From Desulfosoma sp. (GTDB taxonomy: Bacteria; Desulfobacterota; Syntrophobacteria; Syntrophobacterales; DSM-9756): a DNA stretch of 11,875 nucleotides. The DNA lies in contig JBBFKY010000018.1 in NCBI GenBank assembly GCA_037481875.1, positions 1 through 11,875 of the forward strand, in the 5' to 3' direction. The translations under genes and the position numbers were made by a program. The notes below the pieces were generated by a model that was given only the letters and a program-made list of their open reading frames with translations, was not told the origin of the DNA and did no database searches. The first letter of the stretch is position 1. Each line of letters begins with the position of its first letter. Below, piece after piece: positions 1 through 11,875 of the stretch.

Positions 1-30
1 GTCATTGAGTCATTTGGTCATTGAGTCATG
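1..30. repeat. 8-bp tandem repeat (GAGTCATT type), copy 1
   Basis: At least four units of an 8-bp repeat, GAGTCATT and variants (TGGTCATT, GAGTCATG), open the window and continue off its left edge. The array lies just downstream of the transposase gene, at the same place as longer arrays in the other three copies. Confidence 0.8.
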
Positions 31-54
31 AACTTGCAACGACTCCCTTTTGCC

Positions 55-1381
55 TCAACCTGGGCAAAATTTGAGAAAGACGCTCCGAAGCGCTTGAAAG
101 GCGGGGCAATGCCGACCAAACTGGAGCTTAAGCCGACGACCGCTTCGGATCACGCGCTCTACCAGAGAGATCAGTTCCTGGATCACGGTCTTGATGCGAC
201 GCCGCTTGGCCCGATGCCTTACGGGCGAAAAACGGCCCAGGAGCCCGTTTTGCCCCAGGATGCGCAAGATGTTGTCAGCCAGTCCGCCCAGGGTCAACTC
301 CGGAGCCTTGGGAGCAAACTTTCTAGAGGGCAATCGCTCCAAGTCCAGATCGGACTTGATCTCACCGTGAAACGGCTCACTCAGACCTCGCTTCTAGTAC
401 AACTAAATCCCTTGATCCTCATCGATGGAAAGAGACGTCCACCAACCCTCCAGCGTGATATCGGGCTGGATCAGCATTTGTCCCTTGGCATCCGATATTC
501 GCTCGGTGACCCGGATCACCAGGCGAAACCGATAGCTTTCCCCTCCATAGTGTCGTGTCACCCATGTGCTGAGGATCGCCACTTTCTTGCCGGGCCGGGG
601 CTCCGTCACACGGCCCTCCCTGAAGGCCCGATCACGCCAAGAAAGGCGGTCCGCCCCGCGTGGATTCCATTGGATGATGAAGTTCACCTTAGGGTGTCGG
701 CGAAGCTCCACAAGCGTTTCCAGAGCATCGTGAGCCGAGTCCGTTCGCACCAGCAGGGGCCTTTGGGTAACCTTACGAGCACGCCCCAGCATCTTGCGCA
801 CAAACCCCACAAATCCGTTCTGGGAATGCTGAGACCCCGGGCGAAGCTCTATGCCCAGACACCATCCCTCCTGGCGGAGGTAGGCCGCAATCGGAGCGTA
901 TCCCTCCTCGTTCTGGTACGTCCGCGACACCCCTTCTTTCTTTGTGTCGGAATTGTCCAGGCAGAAAACATCCAGGTCCAAAGCCACATCCCCCGTGGAA
1001 AGAGCCGTTACGGGAACCTGGGTCCTCTCGAGCAGTTCAACGCCTGCGGCGTCGGCAAGACGTTCGAAAACTCTCGCGTGCTTGTCGAAGCGCTGTCGCA
1101 AGGTTTCCTGCGAAGGGACCTTTTGGAATTCCAGAGCCTCTTAGAACCCGTCATCGCCGGCAACCCCCCTCGGCGGCTTCAACGTCGCTTTTCCTGGGAC
1201 ACAAAAGCCCCAAAGAGGTCTTGCCCACATCCGCGTGAGAGATCACCGCCCGTTCCGCAACTTCCCTTTCCAACCATTCGCAGAGGTCCCTGCTGCCGTT
1301 GATCAGATGGCCCACAAGAACCACGCCCGGGTGCCCGCTGTAGAAGGCCTTCGAAGATTGTTCACTCTCCATTATTTTCAT
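55..1381 (-). pseudogene. IS1380-family transposase, near full length, interrupted
   Basis: This is a DDE transposase of the IS1380 family, which would cut and join the ends of its own element. Reading down the minus strand from ATG 1381, the N-terminal part (GHPGVVLVGHLI, then GKTSLGLLCPRKSD) is followed by the DNSDTKKEG block (about 930-960), the VRTDSAHDAL block (about 727-752), the Y-2-R-3-E-6-K signature (355-399) and a C-terminal tail ending at TGA 55-57. Without lesions it would be about 441 residues, normal for the family. Four lesions are visible. A run of six C at 1164-1169, against five in copy 3, shifts the frame. A TAA at 1141-1143 stands where copy 3 has CAA. Two TAG codons lie at 403-405 and 394-396. 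The C-terminal frame is intact here but shifted by one base in copies 2-4. No clear ribosome binding site precedes ATG 1381; ATG 1372 is an alternative start. Confidence 0.88.
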
Positions 1382-1416
1382 GAGTGCAGCTGCCGGGTGA
1401 AATTGTGACAAGAGAT

Positions 1417-1445
1417 CCTATAGCACAAAAGCGAATGAGCCTCAA
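1417..1445 (-). promoter_or_regulatory. Probable transposase promoter
   Basis: On the minus strand, TTGAGG (1445-1440) and TATAGG (1422-1417) are separated by 17 bases. This is a good sigma-70 geometry just inside the left inverted repeat and about 35 bases upstream of the transposase ATG. It is a sequence match only. Confidence 0.5.
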
Positions 1446-1486
1446 TACGATACCTGCGGCATGATACTGTTATGTATAGACACAAT

Positions 1487-1500
1487 CTCACGGATTAAGG
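1487..1500 (-). repeat. Left terminal inverted repeat of IS copy 1
   Basis: Read outward-in on the minus strand the end is CCTTAATCCGTGAG. It matches the right ends of copies 2 and 4 (CCTGAATCCGTGAG) at 13 of 14 positions. This pairing sets the outer limit of the element on the transposase-start side. Confidence 0.8.
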
Positions 1501-2429: not shown

Positions 2430-2520
2430 CCTGAATCCGTGAGGTGTGGTGGAGCGAGCTAAGGTGTGGGCGTGGTGACCCCGTTTTGAGCAGTCGACGA
2501 TGCCCTGTTTCAGCCATTTG

Positions 2521-2586
2521 CCCGAATCATCAGCTCTCAAGTGGCAGAAAAGTGCTCATGAGTGGAATCATTGAGCTGTTTTCGGG
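2521..2586. other. Imperfect hairpin in the IS right end, copy 2
   Basis: CCCGAA and CAGCTC (2521-2536) can pair with GAGCTG and TTCGGG (2573-2586). Smaller inner pairs CTCA/TGAG and GGCA/TGCT are also possible. The same structure occurs exactly in copy 3 (4852-4917) and in weaker form in copy 4. It may be a structured 3' untranslated region of the transposase transcript or a transposase binding site; the role is not known. Confidence 0.35.
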
Positions 2587-2670
2587 TATACTTCGCCCCC
2601 GTTCAACGTGAAAAAAGAATAGATCCAGGCTCTTGCAACGACTTCCTTTTGCCTTACCCAGGGGAAAAAT

Positions 2671-2710
2671 GAGTCATTAAGTCATTAAGTCATTGAGTCA
2701 TTGAGTCATG
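2671..2710. repeat. 8-bp tandem repeat, copy 2 (5 units)
   Basis: Five units of RAGTCATT (GAGTCATT or AAGTCATT, the last ending in G) lie between two imperfect direct repeats of about 43 bp. Both direct repeats start with CTTGCA and end with AAAATKTGAG-like sequence (about 2632-2675 and 2714-2756). Confidence 0.85.
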
Positions 2711-2726
2711 AACTTGCAGAGACTTG

Positions 2727-3421
2727 TTATTGTCTTGCCCTGGGCAAAATTTGAGAAAGACACTCCGAAACGCTTGAAAGGCGGGACAATGCCGACCAAA
2801 CTGGAGCTTCAGCCGACGACCGCTTCGGATCACGCGCCCTGCCAGAAAGATCAGTTCCTGGATCACGGTCTCTACGCGACGCCGCTTGGCCCGATTCGAG
2901 CGGGCGAAAATGGGCGAGGAGCCCGTTTTGCCTCAGGATGCGCAAGAGGTTTTCAGCCGGTCCGCCCAGGGTCCACACCAGAGCATCTGCGGCCAACTTT
3001 CCAGAGGGCTATCGCTCCAAGTCCAGATCGGACTTGATCTCACCGTGAAACGGCTCACTCAGACCTCGCTTCTAGTACAACTAAATCCCTTGATCATCAT
3101 CGATAGAAAGAGACGTCCACCAACCCTCCAGCGAGATATCGGGCTGGATCAGCATTTGTCCCTTGGCATCCGATATTCTCTCGGTGACCCGGATCACCAG
3201 GCGAAACCGATAGCTTTCCCCTCCATAGTGTCGTGTCACCCATGTGCTGAGGATCGCCACTTTCTTGCCGGGCCGAGGCTCCGTCACACGGCCCTCCCTG
3301 AAGGCCTGATCACGCCAAGAAAGGCGGTCCGCCCCGCGTGGATTCCATTGGATGATGAAGTGCACCTTAGGGTGTCGGCGAAGCTTCAGAAGCGTTTCCA
3401 GAGCATTGTGGGCCGAGTCCG
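2727..3421 (-). pseudogene. IS1380 transposase, C-terminal half (copy 2)
   Basis: On the minus strand the reading frame opens at the DSAHNALE segment and runs intact to TAG at 3081-3083. It resumes in the same frame after a second TAG at 3072-3074 into the E...K block and the ADALVWTLGG tail. One base is missing in the tail relative to copy 1, so the natural C-terminus is lost. The DNSDTKKEG block is absent, so this remnant cannot encode an active transposase. Protein differences from copy 1 in the shared region are few. The C-terminal limit is approximate because of the frame shift. Confidence 0.8.
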
Positions 3422-3467
3422 GTGTTACCCCTAAAATCAAGAAGCCGCCATGATGAGGAGGAAAGTA

Positions 3468-4301
3468 ATGGAAAGAAAAAAAAGAGTAATTTTGATGTTG
3501 GGCGTTTTTGTATTTGCTTTTTGCGGAATTGCCTTTGCAAAGAAAGATGAAAAAGGCTGCAAAGACCATCCTATGTTTACAAGGATGGACAATTTTTACA
3601 TTTTATCCTGTCAGGAACACAAATTCGCTGAAGCAGATTTCAGAGATGAAAACGGAAAAGAGGTAAAAGTGGAGGGCAAATTTTATAAAATAGATTACCA
3701 CATAGAAGAAGGGGTTACGCCTCCTTCTGGATTACAGGTTCTCAGAAACTTCGAAAATGCCATTAAGAAGATAGGAGGAGTCAAAGTATTTCAGAAAGTT
3801 GATGATATTTGGTTGAAACTCGATAAAGAGGGGAAGACCTTTTATGTCCATGTGAGATCCCCATTTGGCGACCAGTATTATCTTACGATTGTTGAGGAAG
3901 AGGCGATGGTCCAGGAGGTTGTGGCGGACGCAAAGAGCCTGATGAGCGATATTCAGGCAAAGGGCAGTGCTTCAGTTTATGGAATCTATTTTGACTTCGA
4001 TAAGGCTGATATCAAACCTGAGTCCGAACCAGCCATCAAAGAGATCGCAAAACTTCTTCAGGAGAATAAAGATGTGAAACTCTATGTGGTTGGACATACC
4101 GATAATGTTGGAACTATAGATTACAATATTAAGCTTTCAAAGGCAAGGGCAGATGCTGTGACCAAGGAGCTTGTGACAAAATACAAGATCTCTGCTGACA
4201 GGCTTAAGGCTTACGGAGTGGGGTCCCTTGCACCTGTGGCCACGAACAAGACCGATGAAGGGCGCGCAAAGAACCGCCGCGTGGAACTCGTGGAGCAATA
4301 G
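3468..4301 (+). CDS. OmpA-family outer membrane/periplasmic peptidoglycan-binding protein
   Basis: The protein has 277 residues. A signal peptide (residues 1-24, ending GIAFA) is followed by an N-terminal domain of about 140 residues of the kind found in OmpA-like proteins of Deltaproteobacteria (DHPMFTRMDNFYI, ANAIKKIGG-like segment, DIWLKL). The C-terminal OmpA/MotB domain spans about 171-277: YGIYFDFDKADIKPES, then VVGHTDNVG, SKARADAV, YGVGSLAPVA and a final NRRVELV. The Asp of GHTDNVG and the Arg of NRRVE are the usual peptidoglycan-contact residues. The start chosen is ATG 3468, because GAGGAGG lies 7-13 bases upstream; an in-frame ATG at 3450 has no such site. The gene ends with TAG. 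The truncated end of IS copy 2 lies only 47 bases upstream, so the native promoter is probably gone or replaced. The NHL gene follows 131 bases downstream on the same strand. Confidence 0.9.
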   Translation: MERKKRVILMLGVFVFAFCGIAFAKKDEKGCKDHPMFTRMDNFYILSCQEHKFAEADFRDENGKEVKVEGKFYKIDYHIEEGVTPPSGLQVLRNFENAIKKIGGVKVFQKVDDIWLKLDKEGKTFYVHVRSPFGDQYYLTIVEEEAMVQEVVADAKSLMSDIQAKGSASVYGIYFDFDKADIKPESEPAIKEIAKLLQENKDVKLYVVGHTDNVGTIDYNIKLSKARADAVTKELVTKYKISADRLKAYGVGSLAPVATNKTDEGRAKNRRVELVEQ

Positions 4302-4760: not shown

Positions 4761-4851
4761 CCAGAATCCGTGAGGTGTGTTGGATCGAGCTGAGTTGCGG
4801 GCGCGGTGACCCCGCTTTGAATCGTCGACGATGCCCTGTTTCAGCCATTTG

Positions 4852-4917
4852 CCCGAATCATCAGCTCTCAAGTGGCAGAAAAGTGCTCATGAGTGGAATC
4901 ATTGAGCTGTTTTCGGG
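4852..4917. other. Imperfect hairpin in the IS right end, copy 3
   Basis: Arms CCCGAA/CAGCTC and GAGCTG/TTCGGG as in copy 2, with identical sequence. See the copy 2 entry for possible roles. Confidence 0.33.
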
Positions 4918-5001
4918 TATACTTCGCCCCCGTTCAACGTGAAAAAAGAATAGATCCAGGCTCTTGCAACGACTTCCTTTTGCCTTACCCAGGGGAAAAA
5001 T

Positions 5002-5073
5002 GAGTCATTAAGTCATTAAGTCATTGAGTCATTGAGTCATTGAGTCATTGAGTCATTAAGTCATTGAGTCATG
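5002..5073. repeat. 8-bp tandem repeat, copy 3 (9 units)
   Basis: Nine RAGTCATT units: six of seven inner G-type units are perfect GAGTCATT, three are AAGTCATT, and the last ends in G. This is the longest array of the four. Confidence 0.85.
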
Positions 5074-5089
5074 GACTTGCAGAGACTTG

Positions 5090-5812
5090 TTATTGTCTTG
5101 CCCTGGGCGAAAATTGAGAAAGACATTCCGAAGCGCTTGAAAGGCGGGACAATGCCGACCAAACTGGAGCTTCAGCCGACGACCGCTTCGGATCACGCGC
5201 CCTGCCAGAAAGATCAGTTCCTGGATCACGGTCTCTACGCGACGCCACTTGGCCCGATTCGAGCGGGCGAAAATGGGCGAGGAGCCCGTTTTGCCCCAGA
5301 ATGCGCAAGAGGTTGTCAGCCAGTCCGCCCAGGGTCAACACCAGAGCCTTGGGAGCAAACTTTCCAGAGGGCAATCGCTCCAAGTCCAGATCGGACTTGA
5401 TCTCACCGTGAAACGGCTCACTCAGACCTCGCTTCTAGTACAACTAAATCCCTTGATCCTCATCGATGGAAAGAGACGTCCACCAACCCTCCAGCGTGAT
5501 ATCGGGCTGGATCCGCCTACGTCCCTTGGCATCCAATATTCTCTCGGCGACCCGGATCACCAGCCGAAACCGAGAATTTTCCTCTCCATGGTCTCGTGTC
5601 ACCCACGCACGGGAACCTGGGTCCTTTCAAGCAGTTCAACGCCGGCGGCGCCGGCAAGACGTTCGAAAAATCTCGCGTGCTTTTCGAAGCGCTGTCGCAA
5701 GGTTTCCTGCGAAGGGACCTTTTGGATGTCCAGAGCCTCTTGGAAGCCGTCATCGCCGACAACCCCCTCGGCGGCTTCAAAGTCGCTCTTCCCCAGACAT
5801 AAAAGCCCCACA
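5090..5812 (-). pseudogene. IS1380 transposase with internal deletion (copy 3)
   Basis: The N-terminal piece GLLCLGKSDFEAAEG through LRQRFEKHARFFERLAG and LLERTQVPV is uninterrupted, with five C in the run where copy 1 has six, and CAA (Q) where copy 1 has TAA. It therefore shows the ancestral sequence of that region. The deletion then removes both the DNSDTKKEG and VRTDSAH blocks and shifts the frame. The remaining C-terminal part carries the same two TAG codons (5444-5446 and 5435-5437) and the Y-R-E-K block. It cannot be an active transposase. Confidence 0.8.
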
Positions 5813-6174: not shown

Positions 6175-9066
6175 ATGGATTGGTACCGGCGGGACATCGA
6201 TACGGTGCTTTCGGAACTGGGCACCTCGGAGCACGGCCTGAAAGAAGAAGAGGCAAGGGAGCGTCTGAGCCGCTTTGGTCCGAACAAGCTGGCCGAGGTG
6301 GAGCGGATCAGCCTGATAAAGATCATCCTTCACCAGTTCAAGAGCCCTCTCATCTACATTCTGCTCATCGCGGCGGTGGTCACGTTTCTCCTGGAGGAAT
6401 ACAAGGACACCGGGGTCATCGCCGCCGTCCTGATCCTCAATGCCTTCATCGGATTCGTTCAGGAGCTCAAGGCTGAAAAACAGGTCCAGGCCTTGAAGAG
6501 CATGGTGGTGGCCAAGGCTCGGGTGCTCCGGGACGGGAAAGAGGTCGAAATCAACGGCGAGGCGCTGGTTCCCGGGGATATCGTGCTCCTGGCATCCGGC
6601 GGGCGGGTGCCGGCGGATGTCCGTCTGATAAAGACCATCGAACTCAAAGCGGACGAAGCCTTGCTCACCGGGGAGTCCGTCCCGGCTGAAAAGAAGAGTG
6701 AAACCATCCCCGATGACAACCTCACGCCCGGCGATCAGCGCAACATGGCCTTTATGGGCACGGTGATCGTCAACGGACGGGGCAAGGGGGTCGTGGTGGC
6801 CACTGGCTCCAGGACGGTTCTGGGCGGTATCGCCAAAGACGTCAAGGAGATACGGGTGGCGCAGTCTCCGCTGCAGGAGCGGATTGACCGTTTTGCCCGC
6901 GCCATCGGCATCATCGTCCTGGTGGCCGCGACGCTTCTCTTTCTGGTCGGCATCCTGGTGGGCATAGATGCCGTGGACATGTTCATGACAGCCGTGGCGG
7001 CCACGGTGGCCACCATCCCCGAGGGGCTTCCCATTGTGGTCACTATCGCCCTGGCCATCGGAGTGGCGCGCATGGCGCAGCGCAACGCCATTATTCGGAA
7101 GCTTCCGGCCGTCGAGACGCTGGGCAGCACGACGGTGATCTGTTCCGACAAGACCGGCACCCTCACGCGCAACGAAATGACGGTCAAGCAGGCCTACGAC
7201 GGGCAAACCCTCTACGAGTTTACCGGCACCGGCTACAACCCAGAGGGTGGAATCCTCAAAGATGGGGAGGTCGTGGACCTGGCCGGTGCGGAGCAGCTTC
7301 AGTTGATCCTCAGGATCGGACTGCTCTGCAATGAATCCCGCGTGTACGAGGAGGGCGGTGAGTACCGGGTGGACGGGGACCCCACGGAGGGGGCGCTTAT
7401 CGTTTCGGCCATGAAGGCCGGTATGGACCCCGAGCGGGAGCGGGAGGCCTTCCCTCAACTGGCAATCATTCCGTTTGAATCCGACCGTGGGTACATGGCC
7501 ACCCTGCACCGGGCGGACCGTCGCAACCTGATTTTTGTCAAGGGGGCTCCCGAGAAGCTATTGGACCTGTGCACCCAAGGCCGAACGGAAGTCTCGGCGG
7601 AATTCTCGCGAACGGCCGAGGAATTCGGGCGCCAGGGGCTGCGTGTTTTGGGCATGGCCTGCAAGGAAGTCCCGGCCGATCAAACGGACATGACCATGGC
7701 AGACCTGAAATCCGATCTCGTGTTCGTCGGATTGCAGGGGATGATCGACCCTCCCCGGCCGGAGGCCATCGAAGCCGTTGCGGGCTGCAGGGATGCGGGG
7801 ATTCGGGTGGTGATGATCACCGGGGACCATGCCGTCACCGCCCTGGCCATCGCCAGGAAGCTCGGCATCGCACCGGAAGAGGAGGCGGTGGAGGATCTGA
7901 CGTCCAAGCCGGTGGATACACTGAGCGACGAGGAGATCCTCGAACTGTTCCAAGAATTGGTGACAGCTTTGGCCGTGCGTTCGGGACTGGTATCTCGCGA
8001 GGCCGAAAGCGCCACCGCTAAGCGTGTGCAGGCCATGAGCAACCCGGAATTCCTGGGGTTGCTCAAGGGCGTTCTGGCTTCGCTGGTCAAGAGGGCCGGA
8101 CCCGAAGGGGCCGTGCGGAACGTGCTTTCCGGCAAGGAAATCGAGACCATGAGCGACGACGACCTCTACCATTTGGTCCAGAAGGTCTCCGTGTACGCCC
8201 GCGTCTCGCCACAGCACAAGCTGCGCATCACCCGGCAGCTCATCAAACGTGGCGAAATCGTGGCCATGACGGGAGACGGCGTCAACGACGCCCCGGCCCT
8301 CAAGGCGGCCCACATTGGGGTGGCCATGGGCAGGAGCGGTACCGACGTGGCCAAGGAAGCCTCGGACATGGTCATCGCCGATGACAACTTCGCCAGCATC
8401 TATCGGGCCGTGGAGCTGGGAAGGGTCGTGTTCGACAACATTCGCAAGGTCACTTTCTTCCTGATTCCGACCGGTATAGCCGCCATCATCACCATCCTGG
8501 CCACCGTGATGCTCGGCTTGCCGCTTCCCTACCTGCCGGCGCAGCTGCTCTGGATCAACATCGTCACCAACGGCCTGCAGGATGTGGCGCTCGCTTTCGA
8601 GCCGGGAGAAAAAGACGTCCTCAAGCGGCCGCCGCGGCCTCCTCGATCCGGCATTTTCAACCGCCTCATGGTGGAGCGCACCATCATCGTGGCCCTGCTG
8701 ATCTCGGCGGGGGTCATCTACGAATTCATCCACGACCTGAATCGGGGCGCCTCCCTCGAGAAGGCCCGGACCATGGCCGTGACCCTCACGGTTTTCTTCC
8801 AGTTCTTCCAGGCTTTCAACAGCCGGTCCGAGTTGCAGTCGCTTTTCACGATGAATCCCTTGGGCAACCCGTTCCTTTTCTTCGGCACCCTTGCCGCCTT
8901 TGGCGCGCACCTTGCCGCCATTTATCACCCGGCCCTGCAGTGGCTCTTCGGCATGGTGCCCATCACTCTCGAGGAATGGATGCGGATCGCCCTTCTCTCC
9001 TTCACCGTCGTGGTGGTGGTGGAAATCGACAAACTCGTGCGCAGAATCATCGCCGGCCAACGGTGA
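6175..9066 (+). CDS. P2-type cation-transporting ATPase with an internal duplication
   Basis: This is a 963-residue inner-membrane ATP-driven cation pump of the SERCA/PMR1-like P-type class. In order: the N-terminal cation ATPase domain (1-50), M1-M2 (about 58-97), the actuator domain with TGES at 165-168, M3-M4 with IPEGLP at 281-286, the phosphorylation site DKTGTLT with Asp325, the nucleotide domain with KGAPE at 456-460, TGD at 549-551, TGDGVNDAP at 699-707, and M5-M10 from about 755. The M6 segment reads NIVTNGLQDVALAFEP. The position of the second SERCA M6 acidic ligand is Asn, with Asp three residues on, so Ca2+ specificity is not certain. Residues about 571-645 are extra relative to the family and resemble the next segment (see findings). 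ATG 6175 has AGGAGG eight bases upstream. There is no partner gene; a hairpin about 100 bases downstream could end the transcript. Confidence 0.93.
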   Translation: MDWYRRDIDTVLSELGTSEHGLKEEEARERLSRFGPNKLAEVERISLIKIILHQFKSPLIYILLIAAVVTFLLEEYKDTGVIAAVLILNAFIGFVQELKAEKQVQALKSMVVAKARVLRDGKEVEINGEALVPGDIVLLASGGRVPADVRLIKTIELKADEALLTGESVPAEKKSETIPDDNLTPGDQRNMAFMGTVIVNGRGKGVVVATGSRTVLGGIAKDVKEIRVAQSPLQERIDRFARAIGIIVLVAATLLFLVGILVGIDAVDMFMTAVAATVATIPEGLPIVVTIALAIGVARMAQRNAIIRKLPAVETLGSTTVICSDKTGTLTRNEMTVKQAYDGQTLYEFTGTGYNPEGGILKDGEVVDLAGAEQLQLILRIGLLCNESRVYEEGGEYRVDGDPTEGALIVSAMKAGMDPEREREAFPQLAIIPFESDRGYMATLHRADRRNLIFVKGAPEKLLDLCTQGRTEVSAEFSRTAEEFGRQGLRVLGMACKEVPADQTDMTMADLKSDLVFVGLQGMIDPPRPEAIEAVAGCRDAGIRVVMITGDHAVTALAIARKLGIAPEEEAVEDLTSKPVDTLSDEEILELFQELVTALAVRSGLVSREAESATAKRVQAMSNPEFLGLLKGVLASLVKRAGPEGAVRNVLSGKEIETMSDDDLYHLVQKVSVYARVSPQHKLRITRQLIKRGEIVAMTGDGVNDAPALKAAHIGVAMGRSGTDVAKEASDMVIADDNFASIYRAVELGRVVFDNIRKVTFFLIPTGIAAIITILATVMLGLPLPYLPAQLLWINIVTNGLQDVALAFEPGEKDVLKRPPRPPRSGIFNRLMVERTIIVALLISAGVIYEFIHDLNRGASLEKARTMAVTLTVFFQFFQAFNSRSELQSLFTMNPLGNPFLFFGTLAAFGAHLAAIYHPALQWLFGMVPITLEEWMRIALLSFTVVVVVEIDKLVRRIIAGQR

Positions 9067-10120: not shown

Positions 10121-10959
10121 ATAACTGGATTTTCGCTATTTTCCGGGTCACCCGATAGTCTTTCATCACAGCTGCATCAGTGCAAATACACCCCAGCCCA
10201 GGTATTCACGCGTATAAGTGACGTAGCGCACTGGTTCCGAGGTCAATTTATCTCTGACGTCTTTCGCAAGTTCGTCGTCGGGATTCGCCCCAAGCCATTG
10301 TCGCATGGTGAGCCATTTGGCCGCCTCGTATCGGTCCCAGCTATCTTGGTCGGCTAAAACCATTTCAACGACGTCGTAGCCAAGGCGACCGAAAAACGCT
10401 AAAAGTTCCGGAAGTGTGAAAAAGTCGGAGATTGAGTCGGCTAGGCACCCTTTGGCAACGTCTTCCGTTGGTGGCAACTTCCGCCAGTAGGGCTCGCCGA
10501 TGAGGATGATCCCTCCGATGCGGAGGCTCTGCGCCAGAAGCTCGATAGTTCCGGAGACTCCTCCACCGATCCATGTGGCGCCGATACAGGCTGCCACATC
10601 GACCTTCTCGTCAGCGACGTAGCCCGTAGCATCGCCATGGATGAACTTGACTTGGTCAGCCACGCCGAGTTCTTCAGCGCGGAGTTTTGCTTGTTCGGTG
10701 AACAACCGGCTCATGTCGATACCAGTGCCGACGATGCCATAATCGCGTGCCCAGGTACACAGCATCTCCCCCGAACCGCTGCCGAGGTCGAGCATCCGGG
10801 TTCCCCTTTCCAAACGTAGTGCAGCGCCGAGAGTGGCAAGCTTTTCGGGTGAGAACGGGTTATGGATGCGGTGAGCACGTTCGATGACGTTGAAGATCCG
10901 TGGAATGTCCAATGCAGAAAATCTCCTTACGGGGGTGAATAGATTCGGTCACTGCCTAA
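10068..10959 (-). mobile_element. Integron gene cassette carrying a methyltransferase
   Basis: The cassette is delimited by the G/TT cleavage points of two attC sites, between 10960 and 10959 and between 10068 and 10067. It is 892 bp with one gene and one attC in the same orientation, the standard cassette form. No integrase, attI or Pc promoter is seen in the window. Confidence 0.8.
10166..10912 (-). CDS. Class I SAM-dependent methyltransferase (cassette gene)
   Basis: The protein has 248 residues and is probably cytoplasmic. It is a Rossmann-fold methyltransferase. Motif I is RMLDLGSGSGEML (residues about 39-51); an acidic GTGIDMS follows at the end of strand 2; FIHGDATGYV and DVAACIGATWIGGG form the motif II/III region; and GGIILIGEPYW is the post-strand 4/5 segment. 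A C-terminal helical part (LPELLAFFGRLGYDVVEM, RYEAAKWLTMRQWL) could bind substrate. The substrate is not predictable; small-molecule methylation (UbiE/Methyltransf_11-like) seems likelier than DNA, as no DPPY-type motif is present. The start is TTG 10912, with AAGGAG at 10928-10923 ten bases upstream. I see no better ATG. Expression would normally come from an integron Pc promoter, which is not in the window. Confidence 0.85.
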   Translation of the reverse strand: MDIPRIFNVIERAHRIHNPFSPEKLATLGAALRLERGTRMLDLGSGSGEMLCTWARDYGIVGTGIDMSRLFTEQAKLRAEELGVADQVKFIHGDATGYVADEKVDVAACIGATWIGGGVSGTIELLAQSLRIGGIILIGEPYWRKLPPTEDVAKGCLADSISDFFTLPELLAFFGRLGYDVVEMVLADQDSWDRYEAAKWLTMRQWLGANPDDELAKDVRDKLTSEPVRYVTYTREYLGWGVFALMQL

Positions 10960-11331: not shown

Positions 11332-11572
11332 CCTGAATCCGTGAGGTGTGGTGGAGCGAACTGAGCTGTGGACATGATGACACCGTTTTGAGCAGTTGAC
11401 GATGCCCTGTTTCTGCCAATCGCACGAGTCATTGACTCTCCAGTAGCAGAAAAGTGGTCATGACTGGGATCATTGAGCTGTTTTCGGGCATACCTCGCCC
11501 CCGTTCAACATGAACATAAAGTAGATCCAGGCTCTTGCAAAGACTCCCTTTTGCCTCACCCGGGGGAAAAAT

Positions 11573-11628
11573 GAGTCATTAAGTCATGAAGTCATTACGT
11601 CATTGAGTCATTGAGTCATTGAGTCATG
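11573..11628. repeat. 8-bp tandem repeat, copy 4 (7 units)
   Basis: Seven units of RAGTCATT with variants ACGTCATT and two units ending in G. Confidence 0.85.
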
Positions 11629-11644
11629 AACTTGCAGAGACTTG

Positions 11645-11875
11645 TTATTGTCTTGCCCTGGGCAAAATTTGAGAAAGACGATCCTAAACGCTTGAAAGGC
11701 GGGACAATGCCGACCAAACTGGAGCTTCAGCCGACGACCGCTTCGGATCACGCGCCCTGCCAGATAGATCAGTTCCTGGATCACGGTCTTGATGCGACGC
11801 CGTTTGGCCCGATTCGAGCTGGCGAAAAACGGCCCAAGAGCCCGTTTTGCCCCAGGATGCGCAAGATGTTGTAAG
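11645..11875 (-). pseudogene. IS1380 transposase, C-terminal tail (copy 4, partial)
   Basis: The minus strand encodes the tail of the transposase (GLLGRFSP, then a one-base loss relative to copy 1, with KTVIQELI-type sequence in another frame). The frame shift is at the same place as in copies 2 and 3, so it predates their spread or was shared by conversion. The limits are approximate and the gene continues beyond the window. Confidence 0.6.

Follow-up and report, generated by a model that had tools for sequence, protein, structure and literature searches.

Three copies of an IS1380-type insertion sequence on a single contig of a Desulfosoma draft genome carry two in-frame amber codons, nine bases apart, inside the catalytic block of the transposase. 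Such a pair, identical from copy to copy, raises the question of whether UAG is read through in this gene or whether the copies are simply broken in the same way. We addressed this question within the window (the whole stretch of DNA analyzed, 11,875 nucleotides and corresponding to contig C18), in the remainder of the genome, and across related genomes. The three elements are very probably decayed (pseudogene) IS1380 copies in which an amber-bearing stretch derived from one ancestor is shared by three neighbors, and in which the TAGs act as ordinary stops. Our literature search returned nothing that directly addresses stop codons in IS1380 transposases.

Identity and state of the IS1380 copies

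The first search of the genome for this element returned 19 matching places. Its assignment to the IS1380 family draws on profile matches, the catalytic signature, and the element ends. The copy on contig C11 scored 248 bits against NF033539, the NCBIfam model of the IS1380 transposase (cut-off 180), while the fragment of copy 1 lying upstream of the ambers matched PF13701 (DDE_Tnp_1_4) with 41.9 bits (cut-off 34.7, E 5e-11). The Y-2-R-3-E-6-K signature is found as YEKRGLSELFHGVIK in the C11 copy and as Y*KRGLSEPFHGEIK in the window copies, and the copies are bounded by the terminal repeats CCTGAATCCGTGAG and CCTTAATCCGTGAG. In the related genome G005, two copies with CCTGAATCCGTGAG at either end sit between direct repeats of 6 bp (GATATA and TAGTTC). 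Target duplications of the IS1380 family measure 4–5 bp, i.e., those of the two G005 copies are slightly longer. Four copies lie in the window and none is complete (0/4; Table 1): relative to the family, the window copies differ by the stops in the catalytic block and by truncation or deletion.

Table 1 IS1380 features in the 11,875-nucleotide window.
Feature	Position	Strand	Remarks
IS1380 copy 1	1..1500	-	Left end cut by contig start; 1487-1500 is a terminal repeat (minus strand, CCTTAATCCGTGAG)
Copy 1 transposase fragment upstream of first amber	406..1101	-	PF13701 match
TAG site 1, copy 1	403..405	-	CGG/Arg in other copies of the same genome; TGG/Trp in G005
TAG site 2, copy 1	394..396	-	GAA/Glu in other copies of the same genome; GAG in G005 and G006
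IS1380 copy 2	2430..3421	-	Left terminal repeat at 2430-2443
TAG site 1, copy 2	3081..3083	-	In-frame
TAG site 2, copy 2	3072..3074	-	In-frame
Additional TAG private to copy 2	3009..3011	-	Compared copies have TTG or CTG (Leu) here
IS1380 copy 3	4761..5810	-	Left terminal repeat at 4761-4774; right end missing
TAG site 1, copy 3	5444..5446	-	In-frame
TAG site 2, copy 3	5435..5437	-	In-frame
IS1380 copy 4	11332..11875	-	Only the left end is present, with its terminal repeat at 11332-11345; contig stops short of the amber sites

A single origin of the amber pair, and sense codons elsewhere

The amber pair was confirmed in all three copies, where the minus-strand frame reads GI-TAG-LY-TAG-KRGLSEPFHGEIK, and the signature described earlier as surviving around the stops does so (Y-*K-R-GLS-E-PFHGEI-K). 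The 19-mer TTTAGTTGTACTAGAAGCG, which includes both TAGs, is identical in the three copies. Outside these three sites it had no match in the genome at ≤2 mismatches, and it was absent from 58 related genomes at ≤1 mismatch. At five window positions the three copies share a base (405 T, 404 A, 396 T, 388 A, and 374 C) that occurs in no other copy of this genome covering the position; among relatives, the sole recurrence is 405 T in G005. Because these states are, within the genome, private to the three copies, the amber block has one origin rather than reflecting chance, and the three copies carry the same two stops since one broken ancestral stretch is common to them.

We then compared the codons at both sites across genomic copies and relatives, the check proposed in the preliminary description. 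Two copies of the same genome, on C11 (462 aa) and C14 (410 aa), are open through the site, and both read RLYEKRGLSE. CGG and GAA were found at sites 1 and 2, respectively, in L002, L004, L006, L008, and L011, with CGG also in L003; all remaining copies of this genome covering the sites have CGG at site 1 and GAA at site 2. Two 461-aa copies in G005 have TGG and GAG, and no stop was seen at either site among the relatives aligned across it. Instead of the conserved in-frame TAG expected among homologs under recoding, every other aligned copy or relative has sense codons. (A scan of genome contigs returned one distant relative only.) From these codons, TAG replaced CGG or TGG at site 1 and GAA or GAG at site 2. 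The earlier suggestion of a defective element was right, but not the CAG-to-TAG changes proposed with it.

Each amber lies one or two ordinary substitutions away from the codons of relatives. On this ground, and because the private changes of copy 1 are not clustered at the site (a maximum of 4 per 36 nt; P 0.92 by permutation), we rejected a mutational hotspot or single multi-base event as the source of both TAGs.

Further lesions in the amber-bearing copies

The gene of copy 1 stays open over 232 codons upstream of the ambers; further upstream of this fragment it is interrupted by a TAA together with a change of frame. Copy 2, besides its private TAG, lacks the 5′ part of the gene, as its homology to copy 1 stops near 3421. 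Relative to copy 1, ~0.4 kb is deleted from the interior of copy 3, between 5605 and 5609. The lesions are independent in each copy, and we infer that the amber-bearing copies are inactive.

Comparing dN/dS on either side of the TAGs, with relaxation downstream as the anticipated mark of dead copies, proved less decisive. Downstream of the ambers, dN/dS was <1 (0.10–0.70 against the intact copies or G005), although these estimates include only 5 to 13 nonsynonymous changes. Values were <1 on both sides and overlapped, with small counts, a contribution from divergence that preceded the ambers, and too much noise to tell relaxed selection apart from purifying selection. As a counterpoint to decay, the downstream frame is still recognizable and its dN/dS is <1, as readthrough would also give; the 232-codon open frame upstream in copy 1 counts on the same side.

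UAG decoding capacity of the genome

The preliminary description had offered, as one option, that UAG readthrough, suppression, or pyrrolysine-type recoding controls transposition; a product ending at the first TAG would in that case act as an inhibitor. In favor of this are two TAGs placed close together within the catalytic block and shared unchanged by three copies, a frame kept downstream, and the occurrence of pyrrolysine systems in the same bacterial family. We therefore searched the genome for the components of pyrrolysine decoding (pylTSn/pylSc and MttB) and for an amber suppressor tRNA, the latter through a family search followed by ARAGORN anticodon calls on the matched stretches. 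No CTA-anticodon tRNA was present among the 44 tRNA genes found in this genome, a list without some expected members, e.g., Ile-GAT and Ala-TGC, and the draft is thus not fully complete. PylS had no match over the cut-off, and none at E 1e-20; weak matches to its C-terminal part are, judged by sequence, threonyl- and lysyl-tRNA synthetases. PylSn and MttB likewise had no match in the genome, and RF1 was found above its cut-off.

Two relatives from the same family, G004 and G007, served as positive control: both have PylS, PylSn, tRNA-Pyl(cta), and MttB with one in-frame TAG, and their tRNA-Pyl(cta) was recovered by the same program (L102 and L103). Since the same searches find a pyrrolysine system in these genomes, one would have been detected here. 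The resemblance to pyrrolysine decoding thus extends to the in-frame TAGs and to a system existing in relatives, but its components were not found in the genome carrying the ambers, and the IS copies of the pyl-bearing relatives themselves (L076 and L087) read ALYEKRGLSE, i.e., UAG-decoding relatives use sense codons at these transposase positions. Readthrough is also unnecessary where uninterrupted copies exist, and the TAG-bearing copies have additional truncating lesions. Decoding of the pair by pyrrolysine or a suppressor was therefore rejected, and recoding as a control of transposition is extremely improbable. We give equally little credence to a variant in which the amber block came from a host with pyrrolysine decoding or amber suppression, where its TAGs could be translated, and became dead on transfer to the present genome.

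Ordinary transposon decay is instead favored because the intact copies have ordinary codons and no readthrough machinery was detected. Uninterrupted copies with sense codons, in a genome where neither pyl genes nor a suppressor tRNA were found, are what the preliminary description had named as the mark of simply dead copies, except that the codons are CGG and GAA rather than CAG. Possible UAG recoding of this transposase can thus be closed, as the stops sit in decayed copies.

The pyl loci of the control genomes are L102 and L115 on contig C25 of G004, and L103, L114, L116, and L117 on contigs C53, C55, and C98 of G007. In G007, whose estimated contamination is 8%, pylS and pylSn have identical scores on three contigs, so this genome perhaps holds three copies of each.

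Mosaic copies and the sharing of the amber block

Over 291 nt (411–701), copy 1 shows no difference from the C14 copy, compared to 158 differences in 1498 sites overall (permutation 0/2000), and these two copies show 9/60 differences in 361–420. Copy 1 likewise matches the C11 copy without a difference over 295 nt (581–875; permutation 0/2000). Beyond these tracts it diverges sharply. The three window copies display ≤1/60 differences among themselves in 361–420, and up to 13/60 outside the amber block. Such a mosaic would be the expected outcome of exchange among repeat copies, and it supports the gene conversion option raised for this locus. Given this mosaic structure, recombination (gene conversion) or local duplication among decayed copies most likely explains how the amber block came to be shared.

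Alternatively, one amber-bearing defective element may have transposed three times in trans through an intact transposase and decayed afterwards. The genome does have uninterrupted transposase copies, and a separate left terminal repeat with different flanks is present in both copy 2 and copy 3. However, near-identity is confined to the amber block, with up to 13/60 differences elsewhere, which is not the appearance of copies simply descended as whole units from one element, and we consider three transpositions in trans unlikely; spread by exchange or duplication appears the better account. The identity of the block could also be partly an assembly artefact, with repeat copies merged or chimeric in the draft genome. 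The copies are indeed mosaics, and C18 (11.9 kb) starts and stops inside IS copies, and several other contigs end in the element; yet near the block copy 2 has bases of its own that neither copy 1 nor copy 3 shares (427, 418, and 332 in copy 1 numbering), so this is not a plain collapse, and we regard an artefact as improbable.

Under the preferred reading, i.e., decayed copies sharing one ancestral amber stretch, two nonsense changes nine bases apart would have arisen in one ancestral copy or segment, each through one or two substitutions. The stretch would then have passed to three neighboring copies by local duplication or transposition together with recombination (gene conversion), each copy meanwhile decaying further and independently. 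Exchange among repeat copies can in this way make one pair of nonsense mutations appear conserved.

Genomic surroundings

Contig ends lie inside this IS at both ends of the window (1–1500 and 11332–11875) and also on C5, C7, C9, C11, C14, and C15. With so many contig ends falling within its copies, the element probably caused the assembly to break there. An 8-bp tandem repeat of variable length (TGAGTCAT/TAAGTCAT) lies inside the IS, in the gap separating the transposase gene from the left terminal repeat (window 1–29, 2672–2709, 5001–5072, and 11572–11627). A 24-base pattern derived from it had 158 matches in this genome and 0 in seven related genomes, IS-bearing ones included. The neighboring genes encode a P-type cation ATPase (6175–9066), a PEP-CTERM protein (1661–2371), an OmpA-domain protein (3450–4301), and a methyltransferase (10166–10912); the PEP-CTERM and OmpA genes both terminate in TAG, as previously noted.
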